Source of the DNA: Thermoanaerobaculia bacterium
GTDB taxonomy: Bacteria > Acidobacteriota > Thermoanaerobaculia > Gp7-AA8
Reading direction: 5' to 3'
Length of the DNA: 64,000 nucleotides
Assembly: GCA_017883205.1 (NCBI GenBank)
Contig: JADGNZ010000027.1
Span: forward strand, 1-64,000
Both the position numbers and the translations under genes were made by a program. A model generated the notes under the pieces. That model was not told the origin of the DNA. It ran no database searches and saw only the letters and a program-made list of their open reading frames with translations. The first letter of the stretch is position 1. Each line of letters opens with the position of its first letter. Of the stretch, positions 17,734 to 27,296 are shown one piece after another.

Positions 17734-18705
17734 TCAATCCAGACTGGGCCTCGGATCTTTTGCGCTGGCCTTCCCCGCTTCGATCCAGCCGAGGCGGGTG
17801 ATCAGTGAGCCGAGGAGCGCTGAGGCCGCGGCCACGCGGCGGGCGCGCTTCGAGCGGATGCCGAGGAGGCGAAGTGCGAGCGGAAGGGGTCCGGAGAAGA
17901 AGCCGCCGATACGGATCGTGGCGCCGGTCGCACCGTGGCGCAGCGGCTCCCAGGCGATGCTCCTGTCGGACTCGATCTCAACGCCCATCGATGTCTCAGC
18001 GATCGCGGCGGCGAGGCCGAGCACGTTGAGCGCTCGGGCATCGTGACCGCGAAGCTCGAGGACCGCAGTCGCGGACGCCAGGGCGGACGCGCCGAAATGA
18101 ACCGGCAGCGTGCGGGCATGCGCGGCCCACACCGGGATCGCGGTCGCGCCAAGGAGCACGCCGGTGTAGGTGGACATGACCACGCCGGAGAGTGCGGCGA
18201 CGAACGCGGCGGCATCGCCGATGCGTGTCAGACCGAGCTCTTCTCCGATCGCCGCTGCGGCGCTGGCGGTGCCAAACAGTGACAACGTCCAGGCACCGAC
18301 CGACATCGGCGACTGCGGCTTGAAGACGCGGAGCATGTTGAGGAAACGTTCCGGCCTGCCGAGGTCGAGGATGAGCAGAGGGCCGGAAGCGGCTGCGCCG
18401 ATTGCGGCGATCCAGCGAGCGTCGCGCACGAGCTCGCGCGGGGCTCCGCTCAGTTGCGCTGCGAGCGCGAGGACCGAGGTTGCGCCGGCGGTGCCTCCGA
18501 CGAAGAAGTAGACAGGCACTTCCCACGTCCACACCGGCGGCTTGACGATCGGAAGTCCGTAGTAGCCATGTTCCGCATCCGCCTCGGGGAATGGCGATCC
18601 GGACGGGCGGACACCTTTCGCGTCGAGTTGTCCGAGGGCGGCTTGTTCGCGGATCTCGTCGAGGCGCTTTTCCGTCGCGTTGTCCGGAACACGCGGCGGT
18701 TTCAT
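17734..18705 (-). CDS. NrfD/PsrC-type membrane subunit of formate dehydrogenase
   Basis: 323 residues from the ATG at 18705, which overlaps the stop of the Fe-S gene as ATGA. A hydrophilic N-terminus (~60 residues) is followed by VKPPVWTWEVPVYFFVGGTA, the classic NrfD opening, and eight or so TM helices. NrfD subunits carry no haem; they exchange electrons and protons with quinone for the attached Fe-S subunit. Position directly after the four-cluster Fe-S gene assigns it to the formate dehydrogenase complex. Confidence 0.88.
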   Translation of the reverse strand: MKPPRVPDNATEKRLDEIREQAALGQLDAKGVRPSGSPFPEADAEHGYYGLPIVKPPVWTWEVPVYFFVGGTAGATSVLALAAQLSGAPRELVRDARWIAAIGAAASGPLLILDLGRPERFLNMLRVFKPQSPMSVGAWTLSLFGTASAAAAIGEELGLTRIGDAAAFVAALSGVVMSTYTGVLLGATAIPVWAAHARTLPVHFGASALASATAVLELRGHDARALNVLGLAAAIAETSMGVEIESDRSIAWEPLRHGATGATIRIGGFFSGPLPLALRLLGIRSKRARRVAAASALLGSLITRLGWIEAGKASAKDPRPSLD

Positions 18706-19535
18706 CGCGCACCTCGGCGGCGGGACGCCGCCGGGCCAGCCGGCGGGACGCCAGCGTTCCTTGCGCTGAGTGAGAACGCTGCGATCGACGCCGCAATCAT
18801 CACGCCGGCAGCGACTGCGTCGGCGCTCCATGATTGCTTCAACAGGCGCGTTGGCACCTCGGGACTTCTCGGCAAGTTGTAGGCGCGCGGATCGCCGCGC
18901 ACGATGAAGAAGGCGTGCGCTCCGCCGACGCTCGTCTCTTTCGGATTCCAGATCGTGGCGTCGTTCATCCCCGCTGCGTGAAGTTGCGCGATCCGCCGAT
19001 CGGCGGCGGCTTCCAGCTCATCGAGCTTGCCGAACAGGATCGATCCGGTCGGACACGCTTTCGCGCACGCCGGCTCCGCACCCGCTTTCTGCCGGTCGTA
19101 GCAGAACGTGCATTTGAACGCGCGGCCATCGCCGGGACGCCGGTCGATGACGCCAAACGGACACGACACGACGCAATAGCCGCAGCCGTTGCAGATGTCG
19201 GGCTGCACGAAGACGCTGCCGAATTCGGTACGCACGATCGAGCCGGTCGGACACGCTTCGAGGCATCCGGCGTTCTCGCAGTGCTTGCAGACATCGGACG
19301 AAAACTCCCACGTCATCCGCTCGGCAGAGTTTCCTCCGCAGCCGACTTGCGGCGGACGCTCGACGAACTTGACGTGACGGTACGTCGAGTGGCCGAGCGC
19401 GAGCGTGTTGTCGTACGAAAGCCCGCTCCAGACAAAGCCGTCGTCGGGGACGTCGTTCCATTCCTTGCACGCCACCTCGCACGCTTTGCAGCCGATGCAA
19501 AGGGTCGAATCGGTGAGGAAACCGGTGACGGCCAT
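18702..19535 (-). CDS. Formate dehydrogenase Fe-S (beta) subunit
   Basis: 277 residues (MAVTGFLTDSTLCIGCKACE). Four Cys clusters are visible: CIGCKACEVAC, CKHCENAGCLEAC, CNGCGYCVVSC and CTFCY...CAKAC, enough for four [4Fe-4S] clusters that pass electrons from the catalytic subunit to the NrfD subunit. A TM anchor lies at ~240-258. The last ~19 residues (RNAGVPPAGPAASRRRGAR) are encoded by a family D repeat. ATGA overlap with nrfD shows coupling. The catalytic gene is separated from it by two secreted propeller-like genes, which is unusual for this operon. Confidence 0.92.
   Translation of the reverse strand: MAVTGFLTDSTLCIGCKACEVACKEWNDVPDDGFVWSGLSYDNTLALGHSTYRHVKFVERPPQVGCGGNSAERMTWEFSSDVCKHCENAGCLEACPTGSIVRTEFGSVFVQPDICNGCGYCVVSCPFGVIDRRPGDGRAFKCTFCYDRQKAGAEPACAKACPTGSILFGKLDELEAAADRRIAQLHAAGMNDATIWNPKETSVGGAHAFFIVRGDPRAYNLPRSPEVPTRLLKQSWSADAVAAGVMIAASIAAFSLSARNAGVPPAGPAASRRRGAR
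18713..18760. repeat. Family D repeat forming the 3' end of the Fe-S subunit gene
   Basis: Contains GGCGGGACGCCGCCGGGCCA and GCCGGCGGGACGCCAGCG. Read on the minus strand it encodes AGVPPAGPAASRRR, replacing or extending the tail of the Fe-S subunit after its TM anchor. Confidence 0.7.
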
Positions 19536-19576
19536 GCGAAAGCGAGCTTATCGCATTCGAAATGAGCGCCGACGCA

Positions 19577-21706
19577 TCAGCGATTCTGCGGCCGCCGTCG
19601 TGGCAGACTGATGCTCTGCGCGACAATCACCGACGTTGCGTTTCCAACGGCCCGTGAATAGATGAACGTGAAACGGTCCGAGGGATCGACGACAAAATCT
19701 CCGGTACCGATCTGCGGAACATCGATCGTGTCGAGTGCGACGCCCGCCGACGACGTCAGCGCGACCCGGCCTCCCGCCAGTGCAGCGAATCCCTCGGCTA
19801 TCGCGTGGCTTCGAATGCGCGTTACACGAGTTGGCCACGCGAAGTCGATGACCTTGCCCAGTTGTTTACCGCTGGAATCGAAGAGCGCTTGCCGCAGGAT
19901 GTTGCCCGGCCGGCCCCACGACGCGAGCACGCGATCTCCGTTGCTAGCCAACGACGGCAAACCAAGTGCGCCATCTACGGAGTCGAGCGTCAGCGGCGCC
20001 GAGGCCGCGCCACCGGCGCTGATCGAGGAGAGCTCGATGCGGTCGGCAAGCGGCTGTCCCGGAGCGGCCGACTCGCGCCACGTCAGGAAAAAGGACTTTC
20101 CGCTCCAGGCCACCGACGGCTCCGAGTGAACGGGAGTCGTTGTCGACACGGGCATGCTGCCTGAGGAGAGAACGCCACCATCGCTGTTGACGATTGCGAA
20201 CTGGACGGCGCTCGGCGTCGCGATCGATCCCCAAGCCACCAGCCATTCCCTGCCATCGAACGCGGCTGATGGAGCGATCCCCGCCGTCAGCGGAAGCGTG
20301 GCGATGACGGCGTTCGTCGCGCCATCGACGATCGTCATGCGGATTTTCGGCGATTCCACCGCCCCCTCGGTCCACAGCACCATGGTTCGCGCGGCGCCAG
20401 CGGAAACAACCGGCGTGGTTTGATCGGCCGCAGTTGCGAAGACGACGCGATCGGCAAGCTTGGTTCCGTACTGTGTGAGCCCGCCGAGATGAACCTGAGA
20501 ATGATTAGCGGCCTTGCTGTATTCGGCCCATACCGCGCTCACCGAGCCGTCGCTGCGGCGCTCCGCCGCAGGCGGAAGGGCATCGGAGATTCTGCGTCCG
20601 GCGGCGGCACCCGCGAGCGGCGTGTCGCTCAGCGGAGCAACGGCCGCGCGCATCACATCGCCGTCTGTCGAACGATCGGCCCACGTGAGGAAGGTCGTCG
20701 TCGAGGAGATCGAGATCGTCGCATCGTGTTGCCACTCGTTCGAGCAATGCGGTTCGAAGAACGCGTCGAGCGGCGAGGTGCAAACGACCGAACGAGTTGC
20801 GTCCGCTTTACGCTGCCACGCGGCTACTGTCCTGCCATCCCTCGACGCGGCGGAGGGAAGATCGATGTGACCACGTGCGAAGATCGCGGAGTTTGACAGC
20901 GTCCCATCCGCGAGTATGCGAGCCGAACGAAGATCGGACCGGTCGTCCCAGATCAAAGCGTACCCACCTGAGATTCCGGTGATGGCTGCGTGCGGTCCGT
21001 TCAGCAAAGCCGGCGTTCGCGTCTCGCCCGTCGCGGAAACCGGCTGGATCATGAGAGTTTGACCGGCTGCAGTAAACACCGCCGGCAAAACCATGAAGTC
21101 GGCGCCGGATGCAGCCGCGTAGAGTGGAACGCCTCCTGCGGACGTGAGCGAAATCGGCTGTGCATGAAGATCGCGATCAAGGAGCGCGACTCCCCGATTC
21201 CAAGTCACCAGATACTCGGAGCCGTTCCACGCAATCGTGGTCAGGTACGAATACGGGTTCACCTCAGACACAAGTGTCACTGGCAGAACGTCGATGAGCG
21301 AGCCGTCCTCGCGGACGCGCACGCCGACGACGGAAGGTGTCAGCAGCGAGCCGGTCGTCGAGCCTTCGATGCCCCAAACGATGAGGTATTCGTAACCGTT
21401 CCAGACGACCGAAGGGAACTCACCCTTTCCTATCACCGTCGGAAACGGCTGAAGAGGAACGCCGTCAGCACCGATCGCGGATAGGTAAATCGTGACTGGA
21501 GGTTCTAAAATCGAAGCCCAGTTTGGATTCGGCGACGCCTCCCACACCACGAGATATCCAGCGCCGCTGGAAGCCACCTTCGCACTCCGACGATAAGGCG
21601 CCGCGTCGAAAATCGGTGACGAGATTTGTATCTCCGTGGCCGCGCTCAAGGAGTGAAAGGCCGAGAGAAGGAGAACGACGATGACTGCCAGCCTTGGGAT
21701 ATGCAC
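19577..21706 (-). CDS. Secreted propeller-like protein, copy B
   Basis: 709 residues with a signal peptide (MHIPRLAVIVVLLLSAFHSL). At least eight repeats of the type S-x-A/V-W-N-G-x-E-Y-L-V-x-W are spread through the chain (SVVWNGYEYLIVWG, TIAWNGSEYLVTWN, AAFDGREWLVAWG), suggesting a beta-propeller. It is a clear but diverged paralog of the gene at 21876-24077, roughly 40% identical by eye in the N-terminal part. It lies between the two formate dehydrogenase genes but has no obvious redox motif (no Cys-rich or haem sites). Function unknown. Confidence 0.8.
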   Translation of the reverse strand: MHIPRLAVIVVLLLSAFHSLSAATEIQISSPIFDAAPYRRSAKVASSGAGYLVVWEASPNPNWASILEPPVTIYLSAIGADGVPLQPFPTVIGKGEFPSVVWNGYEYLIVWGIEGSTTGSLLTPSVVGVRVREDGSLIDVLPVTLVSEVNPYSYLTTIAWNGSEYLVTWNRGVALLDRDLHAQPISLTSAGGVPLYAAASGADFMVLPAVFTAAGQTLMIQPVSATGETRTPALLNGPHAAITGISGGYALIWDDRSDLRSARILADGTLSNSAIFARGHIDLPSAASRDGRTVAAWQRKADATRSVVCTSPLDAFFEPHCSNEWQHDATISISSTTTFLTWADRSTDGDVMRAAVAPLSDTPLAGAAAGRRISDALPPAAERRSDGSVSAVWAEYSKAANHSQVHLGGLTQYGTKLADRVVFATAADQTTPVVSAGAARTMVLWTEGAVESPKIRMTIVDGATNAVIATLPLTAGIAPSAAFDGREWLVAWGSIATPSAVQFAIVNSDGGVLSSGSMPVSTTTPVHSEPSVAWSGKSFFLTWRESAAPGQPLADRIELSSISAGGAASAPLTLDSVDGALGLPSLASNGDRVLASWGRPGNILRQALFDSSGKQLGKVIDFAWPTRVTRIRSHAIAEGFAALAGGRVALTSSAGVALDTIDVPQIGTGDFVVDPSDRFTFIYSRAVGNATSVIVAQSISLPRRRPQNR

Positions 21707-21751
21707 GTTGTTACGGATTATCGCCGAATTCAGTCGCTAAATCCGAAGTGC

Positions 21752-21809
21752 GCCGGCTCGCTCTTGCGCACGCTTCACGTCAGCGCTTTTGCTTCCACAA
21801 TGCGAACGC
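21752..21809 (-). pseudogene. Remnant of the 3' end of the formate dehydrogenase catalytic gene
   Basis: Aligns without gaps to 24136-24193, the last codons of the intact gene, with about 7 mismatches in 57 positions. The remnant reads VRIVEAKALT-stop-SVRKSEPA where the intact gene reads VRIMEAKALTCSVRRSEPAE. It directly abuts the Fe-S subunit remnant (21811-21863), an order opposite to that of the intact genes. Confidence 0.88.
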
Positions 21810-21810
21810 G

Positions 21811-21863
21811 CTTAGCAGCCGATGCAAAGGGGTCGAGTCAGTGAGGAAGCCGGTCACGGCCAT
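21811..21863 (-). pseudogene. Remnant of the 5' end of the Fe-S subunit gene
   Basis: Aligns to 19484-19535, the first 17 codons of the intact gene (MAVTGFLTDSTLCIGC), with about five mismatches and one inserted base (four G instead of three), which shifts the frame. The similarity extends a little upstream (ATCGCATTCG word shared at 21874 and 19550). It marks the breakpoint of a duplication with the adjacent catalytic-gene remnant. Confidence 0.88.
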
Positions 21864-21875
21864 CGAGCAATGAGC

Positions 21876-24077
21876 CTATCGCATTCGCGACGGACGACCT
21901 CGGGTTGGCACGACCGATCGGATGAAGGCGCGGTACGTGTTGCCGAACGACTCGTCGGGAGTTGCATAACGGTTGTAAGCGATCGTGAAGCGGTCATCGC
22001 CGTTGACGAGAAAATCGGAGATGTAGGTCTGGGAGAGATCGATGGTGCCCCAGATCTTGCCGTCGAGCGAAGTCAGAACAATCCCCGTCGACACAAGCGT
22101 GGCAAACCCACTTGGAGACGGCCGGGAGCGCGTGCGATAGACCGCGGGCGACCACCGCACGGCCACGTTCGCAGCGACCCTCGTGCCTTGATCGTCGAGT
22201 AACGCCTGGCGAACCTCACCGCCATATCCGCCCCCCGAGAGTGCGGCCCATGTGACGAGCACCCGGTTGCCGTTCGCAGCCACCGATGGCGCGGAAAGAC
22301 CCCACTCATTCCCGCCATCATCGAGGACCAATGGTGCCGACGCCTGCCAGCCGGCCTGGCCCGATTTCGCGATGCGTGATGTAACGATTCGGGAGCCCTG
22401 CGCCCCGTTATTTCTCAGTTCCGACCACGCGATCACGAAGCCACCGTTGACTCCTGTGACCGCCTCCACCTGCGTCGCGTACGACGGCTGGTCGATCGAG
22501 CCGGTCTGTAGGACGCGCCCGGCAAGATCGATGATCGTGTACTGAATCCCACCGGAGACCACGAGCCATTCGTTGCCGTCAAACGCAACCGCCTCGTCGA
22601 AGTCGTTGCCGACGATGACAACGGGCGGGGAGGAGAAGGGGCCTGTGATGCCCACAACGGTGGCAATCCATGGCGTGAGTCCGAGCGTTCCCTCCCGCCA
22701 GAGGACAAGGGCCCGGTTCCCTCCGAGCGAGATTCGCGGGTTGTTTTGATCGCCGCCGTCAGGAGCGACTGCTCGATCGGGCATAGCGACACCGCTCGGA
22801 TCAAGTCCTCCGATCCGAATTTCACCAAGCCGCGTGGAGGGATTGATCTCGCTCCACACAGCCGTGACTCCGCCGTCCGCCCGGCGCTCCATAGACGGCG
22901 GCCCCTGCGCTGCGGCTGCCTCGGAGACGATTCTTCCCTCGCCGCTCGCCGCATGTGGCAGCGCATAACTCGGAACCACTTCGATGCGCACATCGTCGAC
23001 CTCATCCGTGCGATCGCTCCACGCGAGCAGGTACGTTCCCAGCGCCGCGCCGATGGATGGATCGTGTTGACGGTTGTCGTTTTCTTCCGAGCAGACGGGT
23101 TGGGATTCGAGATCGAGGCGCGCTGTGCAAACGCGCGTGTTGTTGCTCGACGGACTATGCGGACTCTCGGTCCACGACGCCACCACCGCTCCGTTCGCAG
23201 CCGCCACGCGCTCGAACAACGTCGGTGATGTGGTCAAAGTGATCGGATGAAGTTCGGAGCCTGCACGCGCTGCCCGAAGACCCGTCCTGCTGCTCCAAAG
23301 CAGTTCGTAGCTGCCATCGACCGCCGTGAGCGACGCGGTCCATGCGGGCTCGATGTCGCGGGCTATCCCGGCCTCGCCCGCTGCTGAAATGGGAAGAAGG
23401 CGAAGCATATGCGGGCCGGGTAGCGGGTCGGGCAACGTCCCAGCGATGAGAAAGTCCGCGCCATCCGAGGCCACGCTCGTGGGCTGGCCGGCGGCCGAAA
23501 TATCAATCCGGCGAATCTGCAGATCGGGGCTGATCAGCGCGGCGCCAACCGTGTAGCCGCTCCAGCAAACCAGATAGGAAGCCCCATTCCAGGCCACGGA
23601 CGTGACGGAGGTGTAGGCATTCGTCTCATTCGCCACGACCACCTGCACCAGGTCGATCGGCGTTCCGTCTTCGGAGACGCGCACCATGGCCGCCACCGGA
23701 AGCGGAGTGACGGATCCGAATCGCGACCCACGCTCGCCCATGACCACCAGATACTCGCGCCCATTCCATGCAATCGACGGCGCCAAACCGTAGCCGATCA
23801 CGGTAGGCACTGCCCGCAGCGGGCTGCCCGACTCATCGAACGCGCGGACCATGATCGTACCGGGCGGGTAGTACTCCATCGACCGCTCTTCCCATGCCAC
23901 GAGATAGCCGTGGCCGCTGCTGGCTACCGCAGTGCCGAAGCGGAAGGCTGGAGTGTTCGAAGGGCCGAAACGTGGAGGCGCCAACGGGATTTCGACGGCG
24001 GCGACTGCGGCGGAGACAACAACGAAGAGAGCGATGAGGACGATGAAAGTAACCTGGGGCAAGCGGGACAGGGACAT
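21876..24077 (-). CDS. Secreted propeller-like protein, copy A
   Basis: 733 residues with a signal peptide (~1-28, hydrophobic core VTFIVLIALFVVVSAAVAAV). Same repeat word as copy B: SIAWNGREYLVV, SVAWNGASYLVCW, VAFDGNEWLVV, SVAANGNRVLVTW, consistent with a multi-blade propeller. Begins 36 bp after the catalytic formate dehydrogenase gene. The C-terminus ends GRPSRMR; copy B ends RRRPQNR. No enzyme motif is recognised. Placement inside the fdh locus may come from an old insertion rather than a functional link. Confidence 0.8.
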   Translation of the reverse strand: MSLSRLPQVTFIVLIALFVVVSAAVAAVEIPLAPPRFGPSNTPAFRFGTAVASSGHGYLVAWEERSMEYYPPGTIMVRAFDESGSPLRAVPTVIGYGLAPSIAWNGREYLVVMGERGSRFGSVTPLPVAAMVRVSEDGTPIDLVQVVVANETNAYTSVTSVAWNGASYLVCWSGYTVGAALISPDLQIRRIDISAAGQPTSVASDGADFLIAGTLPDPLPGPHMLRLLPISAAGEAGIARDIEPAWTASLTAVDGSYELLWSSRTGLRAARAGSELHPITLTTSPTLFERVAAANGAVVASWTESPHSPSSNNTRVCTARLDLESQPVCSEENDNRQHDPSIGAALGTYLLAWSDRTDEVDDVRIEVVPSYALPHAASGEGRIVSEAAAAQGPPSMERRADGGVTAVWSEINPSTRLGEIRIGGLDPSGVAMPDRAVAPDGGDQNNPRISLGGNRALVLWREGTLGLTPWIATVVGITGPFSSPPVVIVGNDFDEAVAFDGNEWLVVSGGIQYTIIDLAGRVLQTGSIDQPSYATQVEAVTGVNGGFVIAWSELRNNGAQGSRIVTSRIAKSGQAGWQASAPLVLDDGGNEWGLSAPSVAANGNRVLVTWAALSGGGYGGEVRQALLDDQGTRVAANVAVRWSPAVYRTRSRPSPSGFATLVSTGIVLTSLDGKIWGTIDLSQTYISDFLVNGDDRFTIAYNRYATPDESFGNTYRAFIRSVVPTRGRPSRMR

Positions 24078-24113
24078 GCCTCGGATACGGCCTTCGGCCT
24101 CAATTCGTTTGCG

Positions 24114-27100
24114 TCATCGCGCGAAGCCGAGCTCTGCCGGCTCGCTCCTCCGCACGCTGCACGTCAGTGCTTTTGCTTCCATGATGCGCACGTTGGGCTC
24201 TTCGGAAATGGCCACGAGGTCGTTGACGACGTCGCCGCGCACGAGGCCGCGTCCGCCCCAGTGATACGGGAGGCCGACCTGATGCACGCGCTTGCCTTGC
24301 ACATCGAGCGATGGCATGCGCCCGGTGACGAGCGCGCGCGCTTCGATCTCGCCGCGTGCCGTCGACACGATGACGTGATCACCGTTGATGACGCCGATGT
24401 GCGCCGCCAGCTCGGGCGAGAGCTCGGCGAAGAGCTCGGGCTGCAACTCGGCGAGATGCGCAAGCGTGCGGGACATGCCGCCGGCGGTGTGATGCTCGGT
24501 CAGGCGATAGGTCGTCAGCACGTACGGGAAGCGCGCGTCGGGCGACGTCGCGTAGGCGTTGTCGGGGCGCTCTTTGCGATCCGAGGCAGGATTCGTGAGC
24601 TGATCGGGATAGAGATCGTTGACGAGGTTCGATTCGAGCGGCTCGTAGTGCGCGGGGAGCGGTCCGTCCTTCAAGCCTGACGGGACGAAGAGCCAGCCGG
24701 CTCCGTCGGGATGCATGATGAATGGCGCGTCGCCGCGAAGCGCCGCATCGCCACCTTTCTCCTGATCGCCTTCGAAATCGGGGCGCTTGGTTTTCGTGAA
24801 GTCGGCGACGTCGTCGCCAGCCCACTCCCTTTTCGCTTCATCCCACCAGACGAGCTTCTTCCGCTCACTCCACGGCGTCCCGTCTGGCGCGGCAGAGGCG
24901 CGGTTGTAGAGGATGCGCCGGTCCATCGGCCAGGCGTAGCCCCACCCGTGCGCATACTTCCCTTTCGCCGCGCGGCCATTCGCTTTGTTCTCGCCGTCGT
25001 AGACGCCTGAGTAGATCCAGCAGCCGGATGCGGTCGATCCATCGGCCTTCAGTTCGCTGAAGTTCTTGATGGAGGAACGCGAAGAATGAAGGTTGAAGGA
25101 TGAAGGATGAATGGAGCCGGCAGCTGCACGTTCATCCTTCGTCCTTCCGCCTTCATCCTTCATCCTTCCGCCTTCATCCTTCGTCCTTCCGCCTTCATCC
25201 TTCATCCTTCCGCCTTCATCCTTCCAGCCGTGTATCTCGCGCAGCACCGCATCGGCACTCGGCTCTTCGATCGCGCCATGGCACGGGTAGTCCCACGTCA
25301 GCGCGCGGAGTCCGGCATCGCGCGGCGCGTCGGTGGCCTTCTCCTTCAGCAGCCGGCCGAGGTGATAGATGAAGTGGAGCTCGCTGCGGGCGTCGCCGGG
25401 AGGATCGATGGCCTGCTCGCGCCATTGCAGAAGTCGTTGCGTGTTCGTGAACGTCCCTTCTTTCTCGACGTGCGACGCGGCGGGAAAAAGGAAGACTTCG
25501 GTCTCGATCTCTTCCGTCCGCAGCTCGCCGTTCGCGATCTCGGGGGAGTCGAGCCAGAACGTGGCCGTCTCCGTCTCGACGAGGTCGCGCACGACGAGCC
25601 ACTTCAATTTCGATAACGCTCTTCGTTCCAGCCGCGCGTTGGGCGCGCCGACAGCCGGGTTCTGGCCCATCACGAACAGGCCCTCGAGCTTGCCGTCGGC
25701 CATGTCGAGCCAGTAGCCGAAGTGCGAGTGATCGCCGGTCAGCCTTGGCAGCCATTCGAAGCCGAAGTCGTTCTCTTTAGTCGCCGCGTCGCCGTAGTAA
25801 GCCTTGAGCAGCGACACGATGTACTTGTCGATGTTGTTCCACCATCCCGCCGGCGACTTGTGCGTCTTGATCCACGCAGCGAGACTGTTGTCGCCGTCCG
25901 CGCTGTGCTTCGGCATCGGCAGATAGCCGGGCAGGATGTCGAAGAGCGTGGGGATGTCGGTCGATCCCTGAATCGATGCGTGGCCGCGCAGCGCCATGAT
26001 GCCGCCGCCCGGACGGCCGATGTTACCGAGGAGGAGCTGCAGGATCGCCGCGGCGCGAATGATCTGCACTCCCGACGAGTGCTGCGTCCAGCCAACCGCG
26101 TAACAGATCGCGCCGGTCTTCTCGCGTCCGGAAGCGCTGGTGAAGATGTCAGCCACTTCGAGGAAGCGCTCCCGCGGGATGCCACAGTTCTGCTCGACCA
26201 TCTCCGGCGTGTAGCGCGCGAAGTGGCGCTTCAACACCTGGAAGACACATCGCGGATGTTGCAGCGTCGGATCGCGTTCCGGCTCCGCGCCTTCGTACAT
26301 CCACGTTTTCGTGTCGTAGCTTCTTGTCTCCGGATCCCAGCCGCTGAAGAGGCCACCGAGGTCTTCGGTGTCGCGAAAGTCCTCGCGCAGAATCGTGGCG
26401 GCGTTCGTGTACGGGATGACGTACTCGCGAAAGTAGCGCTCGTTGCTGAGCGTGTAGTTGATCATCGCGCCGAGGAAGACGATGTCGCTTCCTGCGCGAA
26501 GAGGCAGCCAGTAATCCGCCATCGCCGAGGTGCGGTTGAAACGCGGATCGACGTGGATGATCGTCGCGCCGTTCTTCTCACGCGCTTCGATGACCCACTG
26601 GAATCCGACCGGATGGTTCTCGGCCATCGACGAGCCCATGATGAGGATGGCATCGGCGTTGGCGAGATCCTGCTGCGCCGTCGTCGCACCACCCCGTCCC
26701 AGCGACGTCCCCAGACCGGGGACGGTGGAGCTGTGTCATATCCGGGCCTGGTTGCTGATGCAAACCATGCCCAGACCTGCTGTGAAGAGTTTCTTGATGA
26801 GGTAGTTCTCTTCGTTGTCGAGCGTGGCGCCGCCGAGGTGGGCCATGCCGGTGCATTGCATGACGGACTTGCCGTCGAGCGTCTCCGTGAAGGTGCGATT
26901 GCGCGTCTCCCACATCCGCCGCGCCACCATGCGCATGGCCTGATCGAGCGGCAGCTCGGTCCATGTGCGCGAGCGCGGCGCGCGATACTTCACTTTCGTT
27001 GCCCGCCCGTCGTGCGTGACGAGTTGATACGAGGCGGAGCCTTTGGGACAGAGATGCCCGCGCGATATCGGCGACTCCGGATCGCCCTCGATCGACACGA

Positions 27101-27296
27101 CCTTCCCCTCGGCATGGTAAACAAGTTGACCACATCCGACGCCGCAGTACGGACAGATCGATCGCGTCACTTCGGCACCCTCGTTCTTCGGCCGCAGCGC
27201 ATGCGTGGCATCGGACATCGACTCGACGCCAGTTCCGTCGGCGCCGGTCTTCAACTGGCGGATCAACGGCCACTTCAGGAGGAGCTCGGCGAGCAC
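24114..27296 (-). CDS. fdnG: Selenocysteine-containing formate dehydrogenase catalytic subunit (FdnG-type)
   Basis: One reading frame of 1060 residues interrupted only by TGA at 26736-26738, read as selenocysteine (residue ~187) in the context ICxNQARI-U-HSSTVPGLGTS, the family's Sec site. A SECIS hairpin follows at once. N-terminal SICPYCGVGCG...HLCPKGSA binds a [4Fe-4S] cluster; the middle and C-terminus bind the bis-MGD molybdenum/tungsten cofactor. GTG 27296 is chosen because it begins at MLAELLLKWPLIRQLK, where relatives begin; TTG 27362 would add repeat-encoded residues. No twin-arginine signal is seen, so the subunit probably faces the cytoplasm. Residues ~690-738 are a repeat-encoded insertion (KDEGGRM words). 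It oxidises formate, or reduces CO2, via the Fe-S and NrfD subunits. Confidence 0.95.
25082..25226. repeat. Family H minisatellite inside the formate dehydrogenase gene
   Basis: Tandem CCTTCATCCTTCCG / CTTCATCCTTCGTCCTTCCG words (about 28-bp period, four units) followed by a loose complement arm (GAAGGATGAAGGATGAATGG at the left end). On the minus strand it reads KDEGGRMKDEGGRTKDE repeats, in frame and stop-free. The same word occurs at 27313-27343 upstream of the gene. Confidence 0.9.
26700..26733 (-). promoter_or_regulatory. SECIS element for selenocysteine insertion
   Basis: On the minus strand, 11 nt after the TGA, the sequence CGTCCCCGGTCTGGGGACG forms a perfect 7-bp stem with the apical loop GGUCU, the loop found in enterobacterial fdh SECIS elements. 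A lower stem CAGC/GCUG (26730-26733 with 26700-26703) flanks an internal loop. This is the SelB-binding element that recodes UGA. Confidence 0.92.

Follow-up and report, generated by a model that had tools for sequence, protein, structure and literature searches.

Homology-facilitated illegitimate recombination, which has been described in Streptococcus pneumoniae, Acinetobacter baylyi and Pseudomonas stutzeri, joins DNA through one homologous end, while the other end mostly involves a microhomology of 3-10 bp; deletion of resident DNA of similar size is a general, though not obligatory, accompaniment (PMC3240628). Similar recombination has been proposed to underlie the stacking of immunity genes in the type VI clusters of Vibrio (PMC5361080). 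The locus described here, which lies within a 64,000-nucleotide stretch of DNA (the window), would share with the first process (PMC3240628) one homologous and one illegitimate end, microhomology, and foreign DNA between homologous flanks. It differs from the usual product of that mechanism in that, as deduced here from one genome, the resident allele is kept and there is no companion deletion. Like the type VI immunity arrays of Vibrio cholerae and like orphan Rhs ends (PMC5361080), it displays stacked diverged modules, conserved flanks and displaced gene ends. Unlike those arrays, it has neither an effector nor an immunity gene, the modules are putative secreted propeller-like proteins situated between metabolic subunit genes, and both are intact. 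The end of a unit is joined to the start of a unit between two copies, as at a classical tandem duplication joint, but here the copies are older than the joint rather than equal to it in age. The mechanism is already known; the locus is new.

Genes of the locus

Read along the minus strand, the locus consists of fdh-alpha, an alpha-proximal propeller gene (P1), a remnant of the beta start, a remnant of the alpha end, a beta-proximal propeller gene (P2) and fdh-beta, in this order. An earlier sequence-only reading, in which P1 and P2 were termed propellers A and B, had claimed this gene order, its coordinates and both remnants, all of which were recovered. The features are as follows.

24114..27218, minus strand: fdh-alpha, molybdopterin oxidoreductase subunit (PF00384 and PF01568 on the ORF 24114-26639, Pfam)
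24193-24114, minus strand: intact 3′ end of fdh-alpha
21876..24077, minus strand: P1, predicted secreted propeller-like protein, 733 aa (ORF)
21864..21887, minus strand: duplicated beta leader before the beta remnant (direct repeat D5 with 19536-19559)
21809..21863, minus strand: remnant of the beta 5′ end, 18 codons (sequence alignment)
21730..21808, minus strand: remnant of the alpha 3′ end, 26 codons to TGA (sequence alignment)
21808..21809, minus strand: putative illegitimate junction of beta and alpha (sequence comparison)
19577..21706, minus strand: P2, predicted secreted propeller-like protein, 709 aa (ORF; the single propeller of G001 is its orthologue)
18702..19535, minus strand: fdh-beta, 4Fe-4S subunit, intact (PF13247 and others, Pfam)
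17734..18831, minus strand: next operon gene, membrane protein (synteny with relatives)

Here and below, G000 denotes the window's genome (99.7% complete, 0.7% contamination), G001 and G002 belong to the same genus, and G003 to G017 to the same family. The assignment of the two subunits to formate dehydrogenase is suggested by molybdopterin domains with a Cys/Sec site in alpha and by multiple 4Fe-4S motifs in beta. The start of fdh-alpha at 27218, an in-frame ATG, is a guess. The gene at 17734..18831, which also follows beta in G001, G002, G003, G009, G012 and G016, probably encodes the gamma (NrfD-like) subunit, as judged by reading its sequence. The alpha ORF is interrupted at the catalytic Cys/Sec position by an in-frame TGA (26738-26736), where the frame reads ...NQARI-TGA-HSSTVPGL..., and a weak SECIS_3 match (Rfam), below the gathering score, lies on the same strand at 26680-26741. 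The alpha subunit is thus probably a selenoprotein in which TGA would be read as selenocysteine. Also inside the alpha ORF, at 25081-25228, is an array of 21-bp repeats (TTCATCCTTCGTCCTTCCGCC type) that adds an in-frame KDEGGR-rich stretch. At this site, G001 and G002 have insertions that are similar without being the same, and G013 has comparable stretches at other places. Beyond the SECIS_3 match, Rfam returned nothing but sub-threshold microRNA-family matches in the repeats at 25.1 kb.

P1 and P2 are the only members of this close propeller kind in the G000 genome, and neither matches any Pfam family. The AlphaFold model of P1, made from three sequences (pLDDT 66.8, pTM 0.55), is almost all beta, with beta-strand repeats, and the best Foldseek match is the highly repetitive propeller 2ymu (E 4.4e-12), at a TM score of about 0.33-0.40, which is below 0.5; on this model the label propeller-like appears fair. 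As read from the sequence, both proteins have at their start a hydrophobic segment of the sort found in signal peptides, that of P1 being an N-terminal hydrophobic helix. Arginine-rich tails (RRRAAR, RRRPVRR, RGRAAR) are common in distant propeller relatives encoded at other places in related genomes (L005, L148 and L160), and P1, P2 and the G001 protein are likewise arginine-rich at the C-terminal tail.

The scar between the propeller genes

The scar between P1 and P2 is real. Aligned locally with the intact end of alpha and with the intact start of beta, it scores 79 in each case, compared with at most 26 and 27 in 300 shuffles per partner. The beta remnant runs from an ATG at 21863 down to 21809 and differs from the intact end at 5/51 bases (whole codons) plus one inserted C, and the alpha remnant, which begins at 21808 and closes with a TGA at about 21730, differs at 7/54 bases (whole codons). 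Similarity continues over about 25 bp of beta leader, where the P1 stop codon sits. The sequence-only reading had estimated the remnants to be about 88% identical to the intact ends (87-90% was measured), had them abut at about 21810 (the boundary falls at 21809/21808), and had proposed unequal recombination of a unit consisting of the alpha 3′ end, a propeller gene and the beta 5′ end. The scar, whose alignment to the intact ends is significant, has the form of joint that such recombination is expected to leave.

The alpha remnant reads VRIVEAKALT, a stop, SVRKSEPAHFGFSD and a second stop, with changes of TGC to TGA and ATG to GTG. The beta remnant reads MAVTGFLTDST, followed by a +1 C frameshift and then a TAA (from AAA). 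Because of the two stops, the frameshift and the changed Met, neither half is a working gene, and no promoters or terminators beyond chance were found in the scar. At the joint, CGTGCG is present in both parents, and the scar has two bases more than a clean microhomology joint would leave. In a rough simulation, a shared 6-mer so near the joint arises by chance in about 1.6% of cases; its length fits the reported 3-10 bp microhomologies (PMC3240628).

Since the named relatives are mostly metagenome assemblies, the arrangement could in principle be an artefact that merged the alleles of two strains. However, the stops and the frameshift are the scar's own, and the points that it joins are non-homologous, none of which a misassembly of mixed strains would easily create, and the completeness and low contamination of the genome likewise speak against an artefact, which is considered the most improbable of the explanations weighed here.

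Ages of the propellers and of the scar

P1 and P2 share 37-38% aa identity. The earlier estimate of about 40% was therefore close, but it had been given for the N-terminal parts, whereas the divergence spans almost the whole length. P2 is considerably closer to the propeller of G001 (51-53%) than P1 is (34-37%), and among residues common to two of the three proteins, 164 are held by P2 and G001, 63 by P1 and P2, and 60 by P1 and G001. In an AU test of four sequences, with the G016 propeller as one distant outgroup, a sister relationship of P1 and P2 was rejected (p=0.0064), as was that of P1 and G001 (p=0.0003), so that only P2 with G001 was kept; by branch lengths, the P1 split is about twice as deep as that between P2 and G001. 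The fourfold-site difference is 0.63 between P1 and P2, compared with 0.40-0.45 when alpha and beta of G000 are set against those of G001, and the synonymous sites of the P1-P2 pair look near saturation. Taken together with the position of P1 outside P2 and G001, this saturation indicates that the propeller split is older than the species split. No gene conversion tracts were detected between P1 and P2, every window having at most 59% DNA identity, and neither gene shows any sign of foreign origin by GC or GC3.

These proteins do evolve fast: dN between P2 and its G001 orthologue is 0.38, versus 0.09 for alpha in the same genomes, and the P2 orthologues are about 52% identical while flanking genes are 84-86% identical. 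Such rapid change is what a recent simple duplication followed by very fast divergence of the secreted proteins would call upon, but synonymous sites are near saturation too, and P2 and the G001 gene, which group together, are at the same distance from P1, making this account highly improbable. Because P2 groups with the gene of another species, fast protein evolution cannot by itself explain the pair. Of the two ways out offered by the sequence-only reading, fast diversification is accordingly real and insufficient alone, and exchange with a different allele is favored, given that P2 is nearer to G001 than to P1 and that the scar is coding-like.

The scar itself is far less diverged. It differs from the intact ends at 12/105 bases (35 codons), close to the 13/105 between G000 and G001 at the same codons. 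Neutral decay since the G000-G001 split predicts about 30-31 differences, and 12 or fewer would have P of about 7e-6; this expectation takes dS as about 0.76, half per lineage, and the neutral rate as the synonymous rate of alpha and beta. Nine of the 12 differences fall at third codon positions, compared with 4 under neutrality throughout; P is 0.004 when one third is taken as the expected share and 0.04 for a mixed expectation. Both the age and the third-position bias draw on these 12 differences in about 105 comparable bases, and the scar-specific changes taken alone show no significant departure from neutral. The scar thus resembles coding DNA from a sister lineage that was disabled recently: its low, third-position-biased divergence and the greater age of the propellers suggest that its halves diverged while still within functional genes and that joining and disabling came afterwards. 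A simple duplication, already judged inadequate by the sequence-only reading, is disfavored on both counts, since P1 and P2 as sisters are rejected and the scar is too little diverged for a duplication so old.

The two halves differ in their affinities. The alpha remnant is at least as near to the alpha of G001 (5/54) as to its own (7/54) and retains a KSEPA-FGF tail that G001 and G002 have but its own alpha is without, and the beta remnant is nearest to its own beta (5/51, versus 8/51 for G001). By a hand count from the codon table, most informative sites group the scar with G000 against G001 and G002, and the other lineage was therefore probably nearer to G000 than either congener is.

Conceivably, the tandem could be an old within-lineage duplication that preceded the G000-G001 split, with one copy lost in G001 and the scar renewed by gene conversion from the intact ends, as might befit a P1-P2 split that precedes the P2-G001 split and a beta remnant closest to its own beta. 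Conversion, however, is unlikely over tracts of 50-60 bp, the alpha remnant shows no special closeness to its own alpha over the G001 one and is without the own-specific changes, the stops and frameshift persist, and there is no trace of a scar in the G001 or G002 gaps, so that this history, the main rival, seems unlikely. Slightly less likely again is a recent tandem duplication after which a divergent allele replaced one copy by homologous recombination in alpha and in the beta remnant. Although it accounts for a young scar alongside an old propeller split, it requires two events, the second with a crossover inside the roughly 80 bp that beta leader and remnant make up, and it does not predict coding-like differences in the scar.

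The gap among relatives and the probable stacking of two alleles

Among 80 alpha loci of named genomes, covering Acidobacteriota, Verrucomicrobiota, Actinomycetota, Myxococcota and others, beta starts 18-551 bp past alpha in 74; in the G001 record a propeller occupies the gap, which measures 2,331 bp, and at the remaining five loci no beta was seen. Within the same family, alpha and beta are nearly adjacent in G003, G004, G007 and G012. Single-propeller loci, which the sequence-only reading had suggested looking for in related genomes, do exist: the G001 gap holds one propeller of the P2 kind and, more distantly, the G016 gap holds one diverged propeller, about 28% identical to P1 and P2. What the G009 gap retains of a G016-like propeller is a 3′ remnant of 49 residues (E 9e-8); it lies at L051:4923-5465 and is followed by repeat-like sequence, as if the propeller had been lost by deletion. 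The G002 gap has no propeller and contains about 1.7 kb of unrelated opposite-strand genes (L047:5446-7154), one with a helix-turn-helix (XRE-like by eye). Nothing credible was found in the G001 and G002 gaps when remnants of propeller, alpha or beta were sought. In a tree of alpha and beta, G000 joins G001 and G002 (100%), with G016 and G009 in another clade alongside G004. Given this tree and the gap contents, the propeller either entered once and was lost many times or entered more than once.

Overall, it is probable that homology-facilitated illegitimate recombination stacked two deeply diverged propeller alleles at this locus, and a single joining event of this kind between two lineages can be inferred. 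In this genus, the gap would hold a fast-evolving secreted propeller gene in the form of deeply diverged alleles, and DNA of a sister lineage bearing the other allele would have entered the lineage of G000. One end would have been resolved by homologous recombination inside a conserved fdh gene, for which alpha and beta, at 80-84% DNA identity between congeners, offer an anchor. The other end would have been an illegitimate join, near CGTGCG, of beta codon 18 of one lineage to the last 26 alpha codons of the other. The product would have intact alpha and beta genes and both alleles in tandem with the scar between them, and the scar would later have acquired its stops and frameshift. Both alleles and both fdh genes are indeed intact, with no companion deletion of resident DNA. 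P2, which groups with G001, was perhaps the resident allele and P1 the newcomer, a tentative assignment, and the donor lineage with a lone P1-like allele is hypothetical. No P1-like single locus was found in 149 genomes of the class with a profile built from four propellers, and no mosaic breakpoints were found in G000 alpha or beta relative to G001, G002 and G016. Because G000, G001 and G002 lie at nearly equal distances from one another, mosaic breaks would hardly reveal a donor from a sister lineage. If the merger is true, single-allele P1 and P2 loci are predicted in sister species.

A broader and more doubtful possibility is that the fdhA-fdhB gap of this acidobacterial family acts as a cassette locus, in which alleles of a fast-evolving secreted propeller that predate the species are swapped, lost (G009), replaced (G002) and sometimes stacked, their diversity being kept by selection, for example by phages or competitors. 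That the protein is exported and faces other organisms or variable ligands is speculation from the signal peptide and fast change. An fdh operon would be an unusual site for a variable exported protein. Such scars allow a joint to be dated apart from the genes that it separates, and the disagreement here between the date of the joint and that of the propellers is an argument that, in uncultured soil bacteria, a metabolic operon acquired a second allele of a putative secreted protein from a relative.
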